Below, piece after piece: positions 5,595 to 50,321 of a DNA stretch of 64,000 nt. Numbering within the stretch: position 1 is the stretch's first letter; each line of letters starts with the position of its first letter. The position numbers and the translations under genes are program-made. Origin of the DNA: Acidobacteriota bacterium (lineage in GTDB: Bacteria; Acidobacteriota; Vicinamibacteria; Vicinamibacterales; JAFNAJ01); the NCBI GenBank assembly GCA_023384575.1, contig JAHDVP010000003.1, positions 75,086 through 139,085 of the forward strand, given 5' to 3'. The notes under the pieces were generated by a model. It was not told the origin of the DNA and did not search any database. It saw nothing but the letters and a program-made list of their open reading frames with translations.

Positions 5595-6026
5595 ATGAGC
5601 ATTCACGAGCTGTTCGCGTACTTGCACGTTGCCGGGGCCGACCGCGCGATCGCGTTCTACGAGCAGGCGTTCGGCGCCACCGAGAAGTTCCGGCTGACCG
5701 AACCAGGCGGCCGCATCGGGCACGCGGAGCTCGATTTCGGGGGCACGACCCTGATGCTCGCCGACGAGTTCGCTGAACTCGGGATACGGGGGCCGCACGC
5801 GATCGGCGGTACGAGCGTGACGATTCACCTCCACGTCGACAACGCCGACGAGGTGATCCGTCGCGCGGTCGACGCCGGGGCCACGCTCGAGCGCGCGCCG
5901 AAGGACGAGTTCTACGGTGAGCGGTCGGGATGCGTCGTCGACCCGTTCGGCCACCGGTGGAACATCGGCCACCACATCGAGGACGTCTCGCCCGACGAGA
6001 TGCAGCGACGATACACCTCCTTGTAG
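5595..6026 (+). CDS. VOC family (glyoxalase/PhnB-like) protein
   Basis: A 143-residue protein with the two beta-alpha-beta-beta-beta halves of the vicinal-oxygen-chelate fold: AYLHVAGADRAIAFYEQAFG at the start, and GCVVDPFGHRWNIGHHIE near the end. It resembles the PhnB-like branch, often annotated as glyoxalase or bleomycin-resistance-like without tested substrate. A GGAGAGGA box precedes the ATG. It follows the AraC regulator by 90 bases on the same strand and might be its target. Confidence 0.85.
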   Translation: MSIHELFAYLHVAGADRAIAFYEQAFGATEKFRLTEPGGRIGHAELDFGGTTLMLADEFAELGIRGPHAIGGTSVTIHLHVDNADEVIRRAVDAGATLERAPKDEFYGERSGCVVDPFGHRWNIGHHIEDVSPDEMQRRYTSL

Positions 6027-6082
6027 AGGCAGGTCGCGGTGACTGTCCCGCCTGTCGTGTTCAGACCGTTATGGAGGTAGCT

Positions 6083-6103
6083 GTGAGCCTTGAGCTTTGA
6101 GCG
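6083..6103 (+). repeat. Left TGAGC heptamer array
   Basis: Three tandem heptamers, GTGAGCC TTGAGCT TTGAGCG, preceded by AGCT. They read inward, towards the two-gene module. A related array of four copies in opposite orientation lies at 8090-8117, so the pair forms inverted ends. Confidence 0.7.
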
Positions 6104-6133
6104 CGTGCCATCGGATGCTACCTGCGTTCGCGT

Positions 6134-7644
6134 TTACGCTGCCACCTTGAGGCCAACCGCGGCGAGGAGGCGGTCGAGATCATCGGCGACGCGCTGGTAG
6201 AGCCGGTCGAGTTGATGCCGCTTGGCGTCTTGGAGGCGGCCATCGCCGCGAACGGGCTGGAGGAGCCCCGCGGTGAGCGGCGCGTAGATGCGTTCGAAGA
6301 GTTTCAAGAAGACGACGCAGAGGCGGTAGCCGAGCGGCAGCAGCCGATATCGCCGGGACCGCGGCACCTTCTCGACGAGGCCCTTGGCCCGCAGTTTCGA
6401 GAGGTCGTAGCGGAGTGATGCCAGTGATAGGTCTCGGGGGTGACGCCCAACGCCGCCAGGGCATGGGGATAGAGGTCGGCCGTCTTGAAGGTTCCGCCCG
6501 CCGCGACGTGCGCGAATCGGACGAGCGCGTGCATGAGCGCGAGTTGCCGGGGGTGGTCGAGCTTGAGACCTGGGAGGCGCTTGCCGGACGGGAGCACCGT
6601 GGGTTTCGCGAGACGCCGCAATTGGCCGCGGTCCACAAAGGTCTCGAGGATGTCCTGCTGGACGTCGAGATACCGATCGACGATGCCGGCCAGTTGGCGG
6701 TGCAGGGCGGGCAGGTGTTCGACCGCTTTGCGAATCCCGTAGAAGTCGTGGATGCTGGTCTGCAGCTTGCCCGCGTGGTGCGTGGTCACCCGGCGGCCGA
6801 AGATGGTCGTGATGCTGTCGGGCTGGCCGATCGTGCGGTTGGCATCGAGCAACCGGGCTCCCCGCTGATCGAGCGCCGCGCGCCGCTGGAAGATCAGGTT
6901 GTCGCCGTACTCGGTCTGCGCGAAGAAGAGCCGATGTTGACAGCCGGCCTCACGACGTTCCTCGGCCGTGAAGAACGGCGTGAACGCGCGGAGCCACTTC
7001 TGGCCGCACGTCACCAGGTCGTGCGCGGTGAGACTATCGGCGAGCGCTTGGAGGCGGTCGGGGTCGCCGCACTGGAGGAACGCGTTTCTGCACTGCCGAA
7101 AGGTGATCCCTTCTTCTCGGAGCCGGTTGGCCAGCCAGTGATGCTGGTTCAGGCAGACGCGCGCCGAGAACGGGAAGTACGGACACACGCGCACACACAG
7201 GCGGCCCCAGCGTTGGTCGTTGAGGTAGATGTTGTAGTGCGCCACCCACCGCTGGGCGAACTGGAGGTGCCACCGGTTGTCGGTCGGCGTGCCGATAGCC
7301 GTCACGATCCGAGCGGGCTCGCGCGCCTTCAGGATGACCACGACTTCGTCGGGTTTGGCGCGTCGGAAGAACCGGTCGACGAACTCATCGCGTCGTCCGT
7401 CGGGCTCGGCCAGGATCGGAACGCGCCGTTCGCGAGCCCGCGCTTCGATCCAGGCATGGTCCTGGTTGGCGATGTCGCGCAGCAGCTGCCGCGTAACCGG
7501 GTACTGGTCCCGGTAGCGCGTGAAGAACCGGACCACACGTTCGGGTTGCTGGAACGGTTGAATCAGTCCGTTCAGCAGCAGCCGATCGAAACAGCGGTAG
7601 CCGAACCGGATGCTATCCTCGTGGTGCTCGCGGAAGGCGTTCAT
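6134..7644 (-). pseudogene. Frameshifted gene for a conserved protein of unknown function
   Basis: Read from 7644, the product begins MNAFREHHEDSIRFGYRCFD and runs about 405 residues to VTPETYHWH, where the frame is lost near 6421. If one base is restored there, the reading becomes YHWASLRYDLSKLRAKGL and continues in the next frame to a stop at 6134, giving about 503 residues. The rebuilt C-terminus looks like a winged helix (SKLRAKGLVEKVPRSRRYRL). I recall similar full-length proteins in other soil bacteria, but not a function. A GGAG box lies just before 7644. The break could be a real one-base deletion or a sequencing error. Confidence 0.65.
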
Positions 7645-46571: not shown

Positions 46572-46961
46572 ATGTGTCCTCGGTCCAGCTTCCGCGTGCG
46601 GGTGATGACGACCGTCCTGCTGGGCGTCGTCGCGGGCCTCGGAGACCGGCCCGGCGATGCCGTCGCCCAGGAGGCCACGGCCCGGCGCGAGTTCACCATC
46701 ACCGCGCGGAACTACGCCTTCAGCCCGGCCACGGTCGAGGTGCAGCAGAACGACGTCGTCAAGATCACCCTGCACGCCGAGGACATGGCCCACAGCTTCA
46801 CGATCGACGAGTACCGGATCGCGAAGCGCGTCGGGCGTGGCGAGTCGATCACCTTCGAGTTCCGCGCCGACCGGGCGGGACGCTTCCGTTACTACTGCAA
46901 CCTGAAGAACGACGAGCGGTGCCGCGAGATGCAGGGCGAGCTGATCGTCCGCGCGCGGTAG
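46572..46961 (+). CDS. Secreted cupredoxin-like protein
   Basis: A 129-residue protein with a signal peptide and one cupredoxin domain: FTITARNYAFSPATVEVQQ, AEDMAHSFTIDEY (candidate His ligand) and RYYCNLKNDERCREMQGEL near the end. Blue-copper relatives usually read C-xn-H-xn-M in the last loop; here a Cys stands at the His place (C-x7-C-x2-M), so the metal site may differ or be lost. AGGAG ten bases before 46572 supports this start. Confidence 0.75.
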   Translation: MCPRSSFRVRVMTTVLLGVVAGLGDRPGDAVAQEATARREFTITARNYAFSPATVEVQQNDVVKITLHAEDMAHSFTIDEYRIAKRVGRGESITFEFRADRAGRFRYYCNLKNDERCREMQGELIVRAR

Positions 46962-47050: not shown

Positions 47051-48349
47051 TCACGTCGGAAGCATCGTCGAGAAGAGCGTTGCGAGGCCGAGGAAGCTGA
47101 AGAAGCCGGCGACGTCGGTCACGGTCGTGAGGATGATGGATGACGACTGCGCGGGATCCTGCCCGGCCAGGTCGAGAACGAGCGGCACGCCGGCTCCAGC
47201 CACGGCGGCGATCGTCATCGACAACACCATCGCCACGCCGATGACGAGACAGAGCCCGACTGATCCGCTCCACGCATAGACGCCGATCGCCGTCACCAGG
47301 GCCACGGCGATGCCATTGACCAGTCCTACGGACGACTCCTTGACCACGACCCGCAGCCAGTTCCGCAGGCTGATCTCACGCAGTGTCAGCCCGCGCATGG
47401 TCACGGCCAACGACTGGGCGCCAGTGTTGCCCGACTGGCCCGCCACGACGGGCAGAAGCACCGCCAACACCGAGAACTGCGCGATCGTGCTCTCGAAGAG
47501 GCCCACGACGCTGGCCGCGAGAAACGCCGTCAGCAGGTTGACCTGTAACCAGGGCAGGCGCTTGCGCACGGCGAACGGCACACTCGACAGGGCGCGCTCC
47601 TCACGACTCGCTCCGACCATGCTCTGCATGTCCGCCGTGGCTTCACGCGCCGCCACGCCGACCAGGGCTCCGTGGCGCAGCACGCCGAGCGGGCGACGAT
47701 CGATGTCGACGACCGGCAGGACTCCCAGATGGTGGGCGCTCAGCATCTCGGCCACCTCGTCGCGGTGCGCCAGGGCCTGGACGGCGTGTGTCGGCGTCAC
47801 GCCGAGCGCATCGAGGCGTTCGGCGGGATCGGCCAGCAGGACGACGGCGACCGGCAGCGTGCCCACGAGCCGCTGGTCGGCGTCGATGACGAGCACCACC
47901 TGCTCGTCGTGCCGACGGCTCTCGCGCAGCGACTGCGCCACAACGCGGGCCCGCGCGTCGGCGCGGAAGACATGGGCCCGGCGGTCCATCAGGCGGCCTG
48001 CACTCTCTTCCGGATAACTCATGAACCGACGCAGTTCGGCCGCCCGCAGCGCCGGGGCGCCGGAGAGATAGCCGTCACGGGCCTCGAGCGTCACGCGTTC
48101 GAGAACCGGAGCCGCTACCACCGGATCGCAGTCCGCGAGGATCGCATGCCTCGCTTCAGGCTCGAGGCGACCCAGAATGGCCGCCGCGACGTCCGGGCCG
48201 GTCTGCGAGAGGACGCGCGCCGCCGTCTGGGAAGGAATGGGCCGGACGATGGCGGCCGCCTCCCCGATGTCGACGTCTTGAATCGCGCGAGCGGCCTCCG
48301 ACGGATAGCGCGACAGGAATCGCCCGACGAGAATCGCGGCGCCGCTCAT
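47051..48349 (-). CDS. mgtE: Magnesium transporter MgtE
   Basis: A 432-residue Mg2+ channel/transporter. An N-terminal MgtE_N superhelix (about residues 1-115) leads to paired CBS domains (about 120-245), which sense Mg2+. About five membrane helices then form the pore, with the family motif LLPVVAGQSGNTGAQSLAV near residue 300 and LTTVTDVAGFFSFLGLATL at the end. It is the last of three overlapping genes; its ATG overlaps the upstream stop as ATGA. Confidence 0.92.
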   Translation of the reverse strand: MSGAAILVGRFLSRYPSEAARAIQDVDIGEAAAIVRPIPSQTAARVLSQTGPDVAAAILGRLEPEARHAILADCDPVVAAPVLERVTLEARDGYLSGAPALRAAELRRFMSYPEESAGRLMDRRAHVFRADARARVVAQSLRESRRHDEQVVLVIDADQRLVGTLPVAVVLLADPAERLDALGVTPTHAVQALAHRDEVAEMLSAHHLGVLPVVDIDRRPLGVLRHGALVGVAAREATADMQSMVGASREERALSSVPFAVRKRLPWLQVNLLTAFLAASVVGLFESTIAQFSVLAVLLPVVAGQSGNTGAQSLAVTMRGLTLREISLRNWLRVVVKESSVGLVNGIAVALVTAIGVYAWSGSVGLCLVIGVAMVLSMTIAAVAGAGVPLVLDLAGQDPAQSSSIILTTVTDVAGFFSFLGLATLFSTMLPT

Positions 48350-49194
48350 GACTCCGCTCCTTCCCGCCTGTCGGCGGATGCCGAGTTCGCGGCTGCGGCC
48401 AGGCCCTGCAGCAGGCCCGACAGCCCGAGCCAGTACACTTCGCCGAGCGCGACGAGCGTCCGGACGGCGCGCTCGTCGCCGCTCGTCGTGGCCCGATCGC
48501 GATCGAGCTGCCGCAGCCGGCGGTGGCGAATGACCCCGACGAGGCGATGGCCGGCGTCGATCACCGGCATCACGTCGTGCTGACGCCAGGCCGGATGCGC
48601 TTCAACGACGGCCAGAGGCATCTCGACACGCACCCAGTCGATGTCAGGTCGCACCATCGACGACAGAGGGACGCGGGCGTCCGCGTTCAAGAGCGTCGCC
48701 AGGTCGACCCTGCCCACCAGGGCGTGCGACGGATCGACGGCGTAGGCGTGGTCAATGCCGCACGGCCCGGGCGGCAGTTGCGTCCGCGCTTCACCAGCCG
48801 GCCAACCCGCTTGCAGCGCCACCACTCCCGGATCCATCACGGCGCCGGCGGTATCGTCGGGGTATGCGAGCAGCCGCCTGACGGGCTCGGCCACCCGGGG
48901 ATCGAGGGCGTCGAGCCAGGCTCCGGCCTGCCCCCCGAATCGGCGGACGAGCGAGGCCAGGATCTCGACGGGCATCTCGAGACCGATGCGCTCCGCGGCC
49001 GCGGAAGGAAGGGCCGCAAGAGAGCGCGCGGCCACCGCGCTCGACATCCGCCGTAGAAGGTCCGCGGCCGCCTGCGGTTCGAGCTCGCCGAGCACGGCCG
49101 CGGCCTCGTCGGCCGGAAGCGCCGTCAGGCCTGCGGCCGCATCGTCAGGCTGCAACTTGACGTACGCGCCCAGGAGGTCGCGCAGACCGCTCAT
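48346..49194 (-). CDS. Soluble MgtE-N/CBS protein without transport domain
   Basis: A 282-residue protein resembling only the cytoplasmic half of MgtE: N superhelix (LPADEAAAVLGELEPQAAAD, LLAYPDDTAGAVMDP) and a CBS pair (VDLATLLNADARVPLSS, QHDVMPVIDAGHRLVGVIRH). The C-terminal 60 residues have a weak hydrophobic stretch but no channel domain. It overlaps both neighbours by ATGA and so is probably a regulatory partner of the MgtE made next. Confidence 0.82.
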   Translation of the reverse strand: MSGLRDLLGAYVKLQPDDAAAGLTALPADEAAAVLGELEPQAAADLLRRMSSAVAARSLAALPSAAAERIGLEMPVEILASLVRRFGGQAGAWLDALDPRVAEPVRRLLAYPDDTAGAVMDPGVVALQAGWPAGEARTQLPPGPCGIDHAYAVDPSHALVGRVDLATLLNADARVPLSSMVRPDIDWVRVEMPLAVVEAHPAWRQHDVMPVIDAGHRLVGVIRHRRLRQLDRDRATTSGDERAVRTLVALGEVYWLGLSGLLQGLAAAANSASADRREGAES

Positions 49195-50024
49195 GACCGG
49201 CCTCCGGTCACGAGGACCGAAACGTCGTCGGCGAATCGTCGCCCCGGGACCAGCACACGACCCTCCGGCACCGAGATCACCACGCCAGTCTGGGCGAGCT
49301 CGACGATCTCCCCTTCGACGTCGCCCACCCTCACGTGCTGCCCGACGCGGTAGGTCTTGAGCACGTAGAACATCGAGATGATGTTCGCCACCGCGGGCCC
49401 CGACCCGAGCCCGAACGCGAGCGTGGCCCCTCCGAGCAGGGCCCCGACCGACACGGCGACGACCACCGTGAGCAACGTGCTGTGGATGCCGAGCAGGTCA
49501 GCGGCCGTCACGACGCCGAAGAAGAGGAGGACGACCTGCGTCGTCGCGCCGAGCAGCGCCGCCTGAGGCAGGCCGGCGGCCGACGCGGCGGCACTGACGC
49601 CACCCCGCGCGTACTGCCCGGCCACCAATGCTGCGAAGACGATGACGAGCCCGAGCAGGACCCTTGGCAGATAGGCGGCGAGCGCGCTCACGAGCGCTGC
49701 GGCGAGCGGCAGATCGAGCCGCTCGACGGCCGCGGCGACAAAGAGGGTCATCACGAGCCAGAAGATCAGTCCGCTGGCGAGCTGTGCGAATCCGGGACCC
49801 ATTCGGCTGCGTGCGAGGGCCTGGCCGAGCCGCGGGTAACGGCCGAGCAGGCCGAGCACGCCCGTGAGCACGCGCACCGACACCGCTCTCAACGTGACCG
49901 CCAGGAGCCAGCCCAGCGCCACCAGGCCGATTGCCCCGGCGACGTTGGGCGCGTAGGCAACCGCCCGCTGGAGGAACTCGGTCACGGCCTGCCCGACTGC
50001 AGTCTCCCAGATGGCTGAACCCAT
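49191..50024 (-). CDS. MscS-like small mechanosensitive channel family protein
   Basis: A 277-residue membrane protein with about five hydrophobic segments. The pore-side helix is rich in Gly/Ala (VSVGALLGGATLAFGLGSGPAV). The beta-domain YRVGQHVRVGDVEGEIVELA, ending in VPEGRVLVPGRRF, corresponds to the MscS middle domain. The large C-terminal cage of MscS is missing. An AAAGGAGG box precedes the ATG. It heads an operon with two MgtE-type genes, a pairing that links ion flux and Mg2+ control. Confidence 0.8.
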   Translation of the reverse strand: MGSAIWETAVGQAVTEFLQRAVAYAPNVAGAIGLVALGWLLAVTLRAVSVRVLTGVLGLLGRYPRLGQALARSRMGPGFAQLASGLIFWLVMTLFVAAAVERLDLPLAAALVSALAAYLPRVLLGLVIVFAALVAGQYARGGVSAAASAAGLPQAALLGATTQVVLLFFGVVTAADLLGIHSTLLTVVVAVSVGALLGGATLAFGLGSGPAVANIISMFYVLKTYRVGQHVRVGDVEGEIVELAQTGVVISVPEGRVLVPGRRFADDVSVLVTGGRS

Positions 50025-50321
50025 TCGGTCCTCCTTTGACCGGCACGAGATGTGCCTCGCCGTTGGGCGCGCAGGCCCTCACGACCTGCCCGACCCGCCA
50101 CCAGACGGTCGACGGCCGGGGTCCGTCACCCCGTCGGACCGGGTGACGACACTTGCCGGGCCGCCCGCCATGTGACGCGTCCGGAGCAGGGTACACCGGA
50201 GGTCAGGAGATGACCACGGCGCCCCGACGAGCTGGGCCGATTGATTCGGACTGTAGAGGGGAGGAGCCGGTTCTGGCGCGCCGGCGCGTGTCAGATGCGG
50301 GGCACCAGCGCCACCGCGCGC
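50025..50321. other. Intergenic region with an inverted repeat upstream of the Mg operon
   Basis: This 297-base gap lies between the MscS-like start and the end of the M48 protease gene, both on minus. CGTCACCC (50124-50131) and GGGTGACG (50141-50148) form a perfect eight-pair inverted repeat with a nine-base loop, about 100 bases before the MscS-like ATG. It could be an operator or leader hairpin. I did not recognise an M-box or other known Mg2+ riboswitch. Confidence 0.4.

Follow-up and report, generated by a model that had tools for sequence, protein, structure and literature searches.

An MgtE-type channel lacking most of its Mg2+ lock is encoded beside a free MgtE_N/CBS protein and an MscS-like protein

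No channel that is closed by its own permeant ion has been studied better than MgtE. What gates the channel instead in a widespread branch of MgtE that has kept its pore and dropped most of its lock, and that is almost always accompanied by a free copy of the regulatory domain and a neighbor resembling a stretch channel? The question is raised by three genes (the trio) in the window, by which I mean the whole 64,000-nt stretch of Acidobacteriota DNA under analysis.

The three genes lie on the minus strand. The MscS-like gene (49191..50024; 277 aa), defined by gene call, Pfam and structure model, encodes a CmpX-type membrane protein. It is followed by the gene for a soluble protein with an MgtE_N domain and a CBS pair (48346..49194; 282 aa; gene call, Pfam, tree and model) and by that for an MgtE-type channel with N, CBS, plug and membrane domains (47051..48349; 432 aa; Pfam and alignment). 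Each junction is a 4-nt ATGA overlap, at 49191..49194 and 48346..48349. The original prediction of a three-gene operon, overlapping by ATGA at every junction, is therefore confirmed, genes and coordinates included, and Pfam domain matches bear out the identities it assigned. None of the frames examined joins the MscS-like and soluble proteins; long frames in two loci (L152 and L159), considered as fusions, hold no second Pfam domain and are read as GC-rich non-coding extensions.

The complete trio occurs in 75 of 80 related loci, spread over eight named phyla, and four of the five incomplete loci are contig ends. Carriers include Panacagrimonas perspica (L085), Nisaea denitrificans (L096) and Marinobacterium arenosum (L034), the first two available in culture as DSM 26377 and DSM 18348. 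These loci are the best 80 of at least 524 relatives of a trio MgtE and are biased toward the trio; all counts out of 80 below refer to this best-80 set. Genome samples provide a less biased count. The trio is complete in 20 of the 274 genomes of one Gammaproteobacteria sample, where each of the 19 genomes picked out by the soluble profile also has the MscS-like gene, counts that cover the stronger MscS-like matches. In two samples, of 396 and 392 genomes, from the window's own phylum, at least five genomes carry the trio, contiguous every time; the true number may be higher, as a weak hit to the soluble protein can be masked by those to ordinary MgtE. One locus (L087) has a trio-type MgtE with neither partner, even with 6 kb of upstream sequence present, and the channel may therefore work alone there.

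The trio MgtE matches PF01769 well (104.1 bits against a cut-off of 27.6), with MgtE_N and CBS matches besides, and falls below the NCBI equivalog cut-off for mgtE (TIGR00400; 204.6 vs 232.75 bits). Its sequence can be matched to that of Thermus thermophilus MgtE (TtMgtE; 2YVX, 2ZY9) across the N, CBS, plug and membrane domains, and the two have in common glycines 325, 328 and 331 and the pore aspartate D432 (TtMgtE numbering throughout, unless noted). By alignment, that aspartate is Asp412 of the window protein (codon 47114..47116, minus strand), and its equivalent is found in 83 of 83 trio MgtE and in 16 of 16 further ones. The protein is a putative Mg2+ carrier. Where the trio MgtE differs, both from TtMgtE and from ordinary MgtE, is in the cytosolic Mg2+ lock. 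Among the 83 trio proteins, acidic residues are found at E258 in 3, D91 in 2, D247 in 23, D226 in 3, D250 in 13, D95 in 0 and E59 in 4, so that sites Mg2 and Mg4 through Mg7 are mostly lost; the Mg3 residue, D259, is retained in 63. The window protein exemplifies this in its CBS-to-plug segment (residues 226-240; 47630..47674, minus strand), which aligns without gaps with TtMgtE: D247, D250 and E258 are replaced by A, G and A, and D259 is kept, as D240. The pattern of a mostly lost lock and a kept pore is repeated in the 16 further trio MgtE, part of a second set of 16 MgtE and 18 soluble proteins that excludes L066, L078, L082 and L111, already present in the first. Ordinary MgtE from the same order, by comparison, are acidic in 28 of 28 cases at E258, D259, D91, D247, D250 and E59, and in 0 of 28 at D226 and D95.

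What the original prediction called a complete MgtE is thus complete in its domains and largely without its Mg2+ lock. Since D259 remains, along with acidic residues E216, E217 and E255, a weak or altered cation site may persist. The median net charge of the N, CBS and plug regions is -20 in ordinary MgtE (n = 28), -9 in trio MgtE (n = 83) and -1 in the soluble protein (n = 77 of 80, three rows having been removed by length). The ATP site of TtMgtE, considered as an alternative ligand site, is unconserved in both trio MgtE and the soluble family, and only partly conserved in ordinary copies from the same order. At least two MgtE membrane domains above the Pfam cut-off were found in 16 of 20 tested trio genomes, and in the window's genome the second MgtE copy carries the usual lock.

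Judged by its sequence, the soluble protein is a paralogue of the trio MgtE's own cytosolic domain. It matches PF03448 at 43.8 bits, with a CBS match below the Pfam cut-off, and its model (mean pLDDT 92.5) consists of an N domain, a CBS pair and a long C-terminal helix (residues 224-277; 48364..48525, minus strand) that replaces the plug helix. In a tree of N/CBS regions the soluble proteins fall into a single clade (SH-aLRT 99), which joins trio MgtE and not ordinary MgtE; the tree was a quick one, and five of its soluble rows carry a long-branch flag. Trp203 (codon 48586..48588, minus strand) stands in the ungapped alignment at the position of D224, beside the Mg5/ATP loop of TtMgtE, and the position is Trp in 78 of the best-80 family members, the other two having a gap there; among further soluble proteins it is Trp in 18 of 18. 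The window protein has no convincing membrane span, its highest 19-residue Kyte-Doolittle mean being 1.33. Across the family the median is 1.47, with 1.6 reached by 23 of the best 80; the C-terminal part may associate with the membrane, and "soluble" is not certain for all members. PDB neighbors found by model or profile include the CBS modules of OpuA and OpuC (5ks7, 5iip, 7ahd), likewise CBS pairs on an osmotic-stress transporter, though there fused to an ABC ATPase and unaccompanied by MgtE_N. OpuA is gated by ionic strength. A precedent for a free MgtE_N fold within an assembly is FlgY of the Campylobacter flagellar motor, in which the domain serves as a scaffold; FlgY differs in that it belongs to the motor ring, bears a predicted signal peptide and has MgtE_N only, no CBS pair being named in the portion of the source available (PMC11870540).

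The third protein is MscS-like by predicted fold and by profile, its mechanosensitivity being putative. In Pfam terms it matches PF05552 (33.5 bits) and falls just short of PF00924 (19.4 bits, cut-off 20.2); the PF05552 helix, a mark of the CmpX group, is found in 38 of 38 family members and a PF00924 match at E 0.001 in 8 of the 38. The model (mean pLDDT 91.4) has a long helical membrane part, then a pore-type helix (residues 183-224) and a beta domain (residues 230-271; 49212..49337, minus strand), the last supported by PDB matches to MscS. MscS of E. coli is the best PDB match (2oau; Foldseek E 7.6e-7), with modest TM-scores of about 0.4, and the predicted structure has in common with it the membrane or pore helix followed by the beta-domain fold. 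Unlike E. coli MscS, it has additional N-terminal helices and no C-terminal alpha/beta cage in the model: the chain ends at residue 277, six past the last beta-domain strand. Among PDB sequences the family profile matches 9SDB best (1.3e-12), a 171-residue MscS structure of seven chains, which matches the last helices and beta domain. It differs in being a single short channel, one that is not known to have partner genes.

The label CmpX-type comes from the company the protein's relatives keep; I infer the kinship from gene arrangement, not from an alignment to CmpX itself. Known from PMC7641640 and PMC10965496 is an arrangement in which a small MscS homologue accompanies genes for a CorA-like protein and an ECF sigma factor. 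Trio-less relatives of the trio MscS-like protein likewise adjoin sigma genes and CorA genes, according to ten neighboring proteins chosen by eye from 14 trio-less loci. The trio's protein differs in having MgtE and the soluble N/CBS protein as partners. With a profile built from seven CmpX-side sigma proteins, a sigma-like frame was found within the fetched flanks of 2 of the best 80 trio loci (L044 and L075), while the 9 kb surrounding the trio of the window gave none. With the trio, the association between CmpX-type proteins and Mg2+ channels would become a testable pattern, in which the channel is CorA-like in one lineage and MgtE in another.

Do the three genes travel together? At 69 loci, the trees of the MscS-like and soluble proteins (48 and 49 well-supported splits) have 33 such splits in common, and those of the soluble protein and the MgtE N/CBS region also have 33; the agreement is equal by correlation as well (r 0.82 each), and permutation gives a mean of at most 0.21 shared splits across all six tree comparisons. 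The comparison omitted six loci in which the MscS-like gene is inverted, two with a short or broken MscS-like frame (L004 and L093) and one with a short soluble frame (L040). In the MscS tree, whose backbone is partly weak, the loci with the inverted gene form a separate clade, and a trio-less protein (L176) falls between. With the genes together at most of the best-80 loci and their trees sharing these splits, the unit of three that the original prediction proposed holds up, and the survey of conservation that it called for, now run, found the trio present in relatives, whose lack of it would have counted against the idea. Conserved gene order is evidence of functional linkage, not of contact.

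By the evidence of sequences and trees, then, one branch of MgtE carries a free N/CBS paralogue of its own cytosolic domain, keeps the pore site and has lost most of its Mg2+-sensing acidic residues, and it is held beside an MscS-like protein of CmpX type whose chain stops once the MscS beta domain is complete. I tentatively read the trio, at a little under even chances, as a co-inherited ion-homeostasis unit: an MgtE-type channel freed from Mg2+ gating, an osmotic or tension partner, and a soluble adaptor. It suggests an undescribed unit for salt or pressure stress. By title and abstract, searches of open-licence papers listed no description of the trio, though one may exist outside them, and PMC4230888, PMC12903955 and PMC10219603 do not, in the parts of each available, link its genes.

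The complex, its gating and the flow of ions through it I infer as follows. The trio channel would no longer be shut by Mg2+, and another signal would act through its cytosolic layer, most likely an osmotic one: the candidates are membrane tension at the MscS-like partner and, at the CBS layer, ionic strength or a ligand. The adaptor would pair with the N/CBS layer of MgtE and dock on an MscS-like protein that has no cytosolic cage of its own. Divalent-cation flux would be adjusted during changes of turgor or salt, with the trio channel working beside a second MgtE where there is one. The boldest version, a mechanically or osmotically gated divalent-cation complex in which tension passes from a cage-less MscS-like sensor through the adaptor to an Mg2+-independent MgtE-type pore, I regard as doubtful, about as probable as one outcome among four; if it is true, turgor, and not cytosolic Mg2+, sets the flux of Mg2+ or other divalents.

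The soluble protein may instead regulate only the trio MgtE, through a mixed N/CBS assembly or as an antagonist responsive to nucleotide or ionic strength, the MscS-like channel being a separate response to the same stress and merely co-expressed. The two N/CBS proteins are, after all, paralogues, and MgtE is a homodimer that binds Mg2+ at the subunit interfaces of that very part, according to the available portion of PMC8104411. Furthermore, 6 of 78 full loci have an inverted MscS-like gene, and in these the soluble and MgtE genes stay in line. Even there, however, the MscS-like gene remains adjacent in six of six. It also accompanies the soluble gene in all 19 of the Gammaproteobacteria genomes mentioned above, and its tree agrees with that of the soluble protein as well as the MgtE N/CBS tree does. 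I consider this explanation unlikely, though it is the rival to be taken most seriously.

Far less probable is the role given to the soluble protein by the original prediction, that of a Mg2+ sensor subunit extending the ordinary feedback on MgtE. It does have the N and CBS folds, which in TtMgtE contain the cytosolic sites for Mg2+. However, conservation extends to none of the published coordinating residues: the eight positions are acidic in only 0 to 23 of the best 80 family members and in only 0 to 6 of 18 further ones. With these residues mostly lost from the trio MgtE too and the soluble protein's net charge near zero, the sensor proposal fails at the level of residues. Nor did Rfam provide a Mg2+ riboswitch or leader RNA: 10 trio loci totaling 130 kb gave no match above gathering score, and the 4.3 kb surrounding the trio of the window, searched by E-value, gave only two sub-threshold matches to a frameshift element, one per strand and both distant from where the trio begins. 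Least probable of all is an ordinary clustering of unrelated stress genes with the soluble protein a decaying duplicate: small bacterial genes do often cluster, and the window's copy is divergent (21-32% identical to the other 39 alignment rows), but neither decay nor chance clustering is expected to give one clade in the tree, retention in eight named phyla, an invariant Trp, a confident fold and concordant gene trees.

The inverted repeat noted upstream of the trio by the original prediction (50124..50148; 8-bp arms, 9-nt loop) exists at chance level, and as evidence for the trio or as a candidate operator it was set aside: when the 297 bp upstream are shuffled by dinucleotide, 118 of 1000 sequences contain one equally good, 48 such repeats lie within the window, and the motif was absent from the other loci compared. 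The upstream RNA fold is unremarkable (z of -1.71), and a search for sigma-70 promoters and terminators found none, a search that is uninformative in GC-rich DNA.

Ordinary MgtE genes of trio genomes may keep different company. Of twenty such loci taken as a control, five proved to carry the trio and were excluded; at the remaining 15, an MscS-like neighbor occurs at none, nor do the other neighbors seen near the trio: RimK/Zn-protease/AstE genes (14 of the best 80 trio loci) and CNNM genes (13 of the best 80). Counts such as 14/80 against 0/15 are too small to serve as a test. Osmotic or ion-handling neighbors occur at a minority of trio loci.

The three genes lie on the minus strand and overlap by ATGA at both junctions, as originally predicted, an operon of an MscS-like protein of 277 aa (49191-50024), a soluble MgtE_N/CBS protein of 282 aa with no obvious transmembrane segment (48346-49194) and an MgtE of 432 aa (47051-48349). 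The gene calls carry family names backed by Pfam and NCBIfam, with two shortfalls: the MscS beta-domain Pfam model scores slightly below its cut-off, and the MgtE scores below the NCBI mgtE equivalog cut-off. The inverted repeat noted upstream (50124-50148) exists, but it is ordinary for such GC-rich DNA. A small cupredoxin-like gene (46572-46961, plus strand; PF13473, 54.6 bits) adjoins the trio in converging orientation.

I searched genome contigs with three aligned trio MgtE proteins, kept the 80 best-matching of 524 related loci (L-numbers) and scored completeness with profiles of the three proteins. The conservation survey that the original prediction had called for finds the trio in relatives, complete in 75 of these best 80 loci: 43 from Pseudomonadota, 14 Nitrospirota, six Myxococcota, four Acidobacteriota, two Nitrospinota, two Binatota, one Omnitrophota, one Gemmatimonadota and two Deltaproteobacteria without a phylum name. 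Four incomplete loci (L039, L055, L063 and L089) stop at a contig edge. The fifth, L087, is a genuine exception, where a trio-type MgtE with a shortened N domain (6001-7143) has neither partner gene despite 6 kb of upstream sequence, which holds a MocR/aminotransferase-like frame (named by eye). Adding the window and two relatives (L004 and L028) brings the set to 83 loci, 78 of them complete: 72 have the three genes in line (in the same orientation), and six have the MscS-like gene inverted yet adjacent. Gaps measured from the longest frames are at most 20 nt between the soluble and MgtE genes in 77/79 loci and between the MscS-like and soluble genes in 69/71. One trio locus (L045) bears the label Klebsiella pneumoniae (MAG), which is probably wrong; its proteins group with those of an environmental gammaproteobacterial MAG (L066).

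Less biased counts come from genome samples. The window's phylum was sampled at 396 and 392 genomes. There the five top MscS-like and five top soluble profile matches come from one set of five genomes, with at most 70 nt between the two matches; three of these genomes were retrieved and inspected, and the count of five is a minimum. The class of Marinobacterium, sampled by way of trio locus L034, contributed 274 genomes: the soluble protein appears at E 1e-48 in 19, every one with the MscS-like gene beside it, and a twentieth trio genome (G599) has a soluble match below that threshold. MgtE is incomplete in two of the 20, through one contig end and one broken frame. Of 20 trio genomes examined for this, 16 have two or more MgtE membrane domains scoring above the Pfam cut-off, so the trio MgtE is usually not the genome's sole copy. 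None of 15 ordinary MgtE loci (copies outside the trio) from trio genomes has an MscS-like gene or a second N/CBS protein. As side observations, the trio MgtE of genome G722 (L154, 82-2424) is split across two reading frames by a genome frameshift or sequencing error, and weak MgtE_N/CBS-like matches in three order-level relatives (G009:C168:3344-4084, G075:C4:34324-34971 and G081:C115:1753-2403) sit in open frames of about 1000-1240 codons.

The trio is inherited together, for gene trees built from 69 in-line loci agree in many more splits than permuted ones do: those of the MscS-like and soluble proteins have 33 common splits (of 48 and 49), against a permuted mean of 0.145. The soluble protein and the trio MgtE are paralogues. 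A quick tree built from 63 N/CBS segments puts all 25 soluble sequences in a single clade (SH-aLRT 99), which clusters with the trio MgtE proteins, and places ordinary MgtE and Thermus thermophilus MgtE (TtMgtE) in a separate clade (SH-aLRT 100). The simplest reading is that a single duplication of the cytosolic part inside the trio MgtE branch gave rise to the soluble protein.

I will refer to the cytosolic Mg2+-coordinating residues of TtMgtE as the lock. An excerpt of PMC5882242 gives the ligands as D432 (Mg1), E258 (Mg2), D259 (Mg3), D91/D247 (Mg4), D226/D250 (Mg5), D95 (Mg6) and E59 (Mg7). Mapped by alignment, the pore aspartate D432 is kept in 83/83 trio MgtE proteins and D259 in 63 (acidic in 64). 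Elsewhere, with plug-region positions taken from an ungapped alignment and N-domain positions less sure, acidic residues number three at E258, two at D91, 23 at D247, three at D226, 13 at D250, none at D95 and four at E59; the D226 position is Arg, Lys or His in 60/83. Aligned in the same way, 28 ordinary MgtE proteins from the window's order, including the second MgtE of the window's own genome (L001), are acidic without exception at E258, D259, D91, D247, D250 and E59, with Asn at D226 in all 28 and an acidic D95 in none. In 16 further trio MgtE proteins (a set of 20 minus four already counted among the 83), D432 is kept in all, and acidic residues number one at E258, 13 at D259, two at D247, three at D250, one at E59 and none at D91, D226 or D95. 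Median net charge is -20 in ordinary MgtE, -9 in trio MgtE and -1 in the soluble proteins. On this alignment, the trio MgtE branch has lost most lock residues and kept the pore site.

The model of the soluble protein is confident (mean pLDDT 92.5), and its best match is the MgtE cytosolic domain (2yvy, E 1.5e-15). Residue 203 is Trp in 78/80 soluble proteins (a gap in the other two) and in 18/18 further ones. In the ungapped alignment it corresponds to TtMgtE D224, two residues ahead of D226 and three ahead of F227, which stacks adenine according to an excerpt of PMC5529423. Where MgtE has its plug, the model shows a long helix (residues 224-277). Trp203 and this helix may offer a ligand site or docking surface. 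A stretch hydrophobic enough for membrane contact occurs in 23/80 soluble proteins.

The MscS-like model (mean pLDDT 91.4) combines an extended helical membrane region with a pore-type helix and a beta domain; it matches MscS but lacks the cage after the beta domain. Of ten neighbour proteins picked by eye from 14 loci of trio-less MscS-like relatives, eight are sigma-factor-like and two CorA-like, an arrangement resembling cmaX-cfrX-cmpX-sigX of Pseudomonas aeruginosa (excerpt of PMC7641640). The MscS-like family thus occurs with a CorA-like protein in one lineage and with MgtE in another. Sigma-factor genes adjoin in eight of these CmpX-like loci and CorA genes in two (L166, L167, L168, L175, L176, L177, L178, L180 and L181; L178 has both). 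A sigma-like gene is near the trio in just 2/80 loci. In L075 (368-2249), a second MscS-like gene (1350-2249) preceded by a sigma-like frame (368-955) places a CmpX/SigX-type pair and a trio side by side.

With operon structure, joint inheritance, paralogy, the loss of most lock residues, the retained pore site and the fold of the parts established, I tentatively favor, at somewhat short of even chances, a unit in which a divalent cation would pass through an MgtE-type pore not closed by millimolar Mg2+, the soluble paralogue would sit in the MgtE cytosolic layer and connect it to the MscS-like protein, and the signal would be osmotic or mechanical. It is possible, though less likely, that the soluble protein, kin to the cytosolic part of its MgtE neighbor, regulates MgtE alone and that the MscS-like channel, adjacent even where inverted, is merely co-expressed. 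The Mg2+-sensor role originally proposed for the soluble protein, an MgtE cytosolic fold, is very improbable, as none of the TtMgtE Mg2+ sites is conserved in the soluble family by alignment mapping. The MscS-like, MgtE_N/CBS and MgtE families are each already known; the open-licence literature searched, as listings and passages, yielded no description of their combination or of an MgtE branch without most of the lock.

In the flanking sequence retrieved (6 kb or less per side), a RimK, putative Zn protease or AstE/AspA-like gene is found at 14/80 trio loci, and nine (L035, L037, L038, L050, L058, L073, L091, L096 and L099) have all three (RimK ATP-grasp, PF05618 and AstE/AspA-like). I take such RimK/AstE-type clusters to be osmotic-stress genes. 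Neither these genes nor CNNM genes were seen near the 15 ordinary MgtE copies. CNNM proteins are tied to Mg2+ transport, and their genes flank 13/80 trio loci (L038, L051, L052, L055, L059, L060, L069, L071, L081, L091, L094, L095 and L096); CNNM is the next downstream gene in eight of 11 clustered loci.
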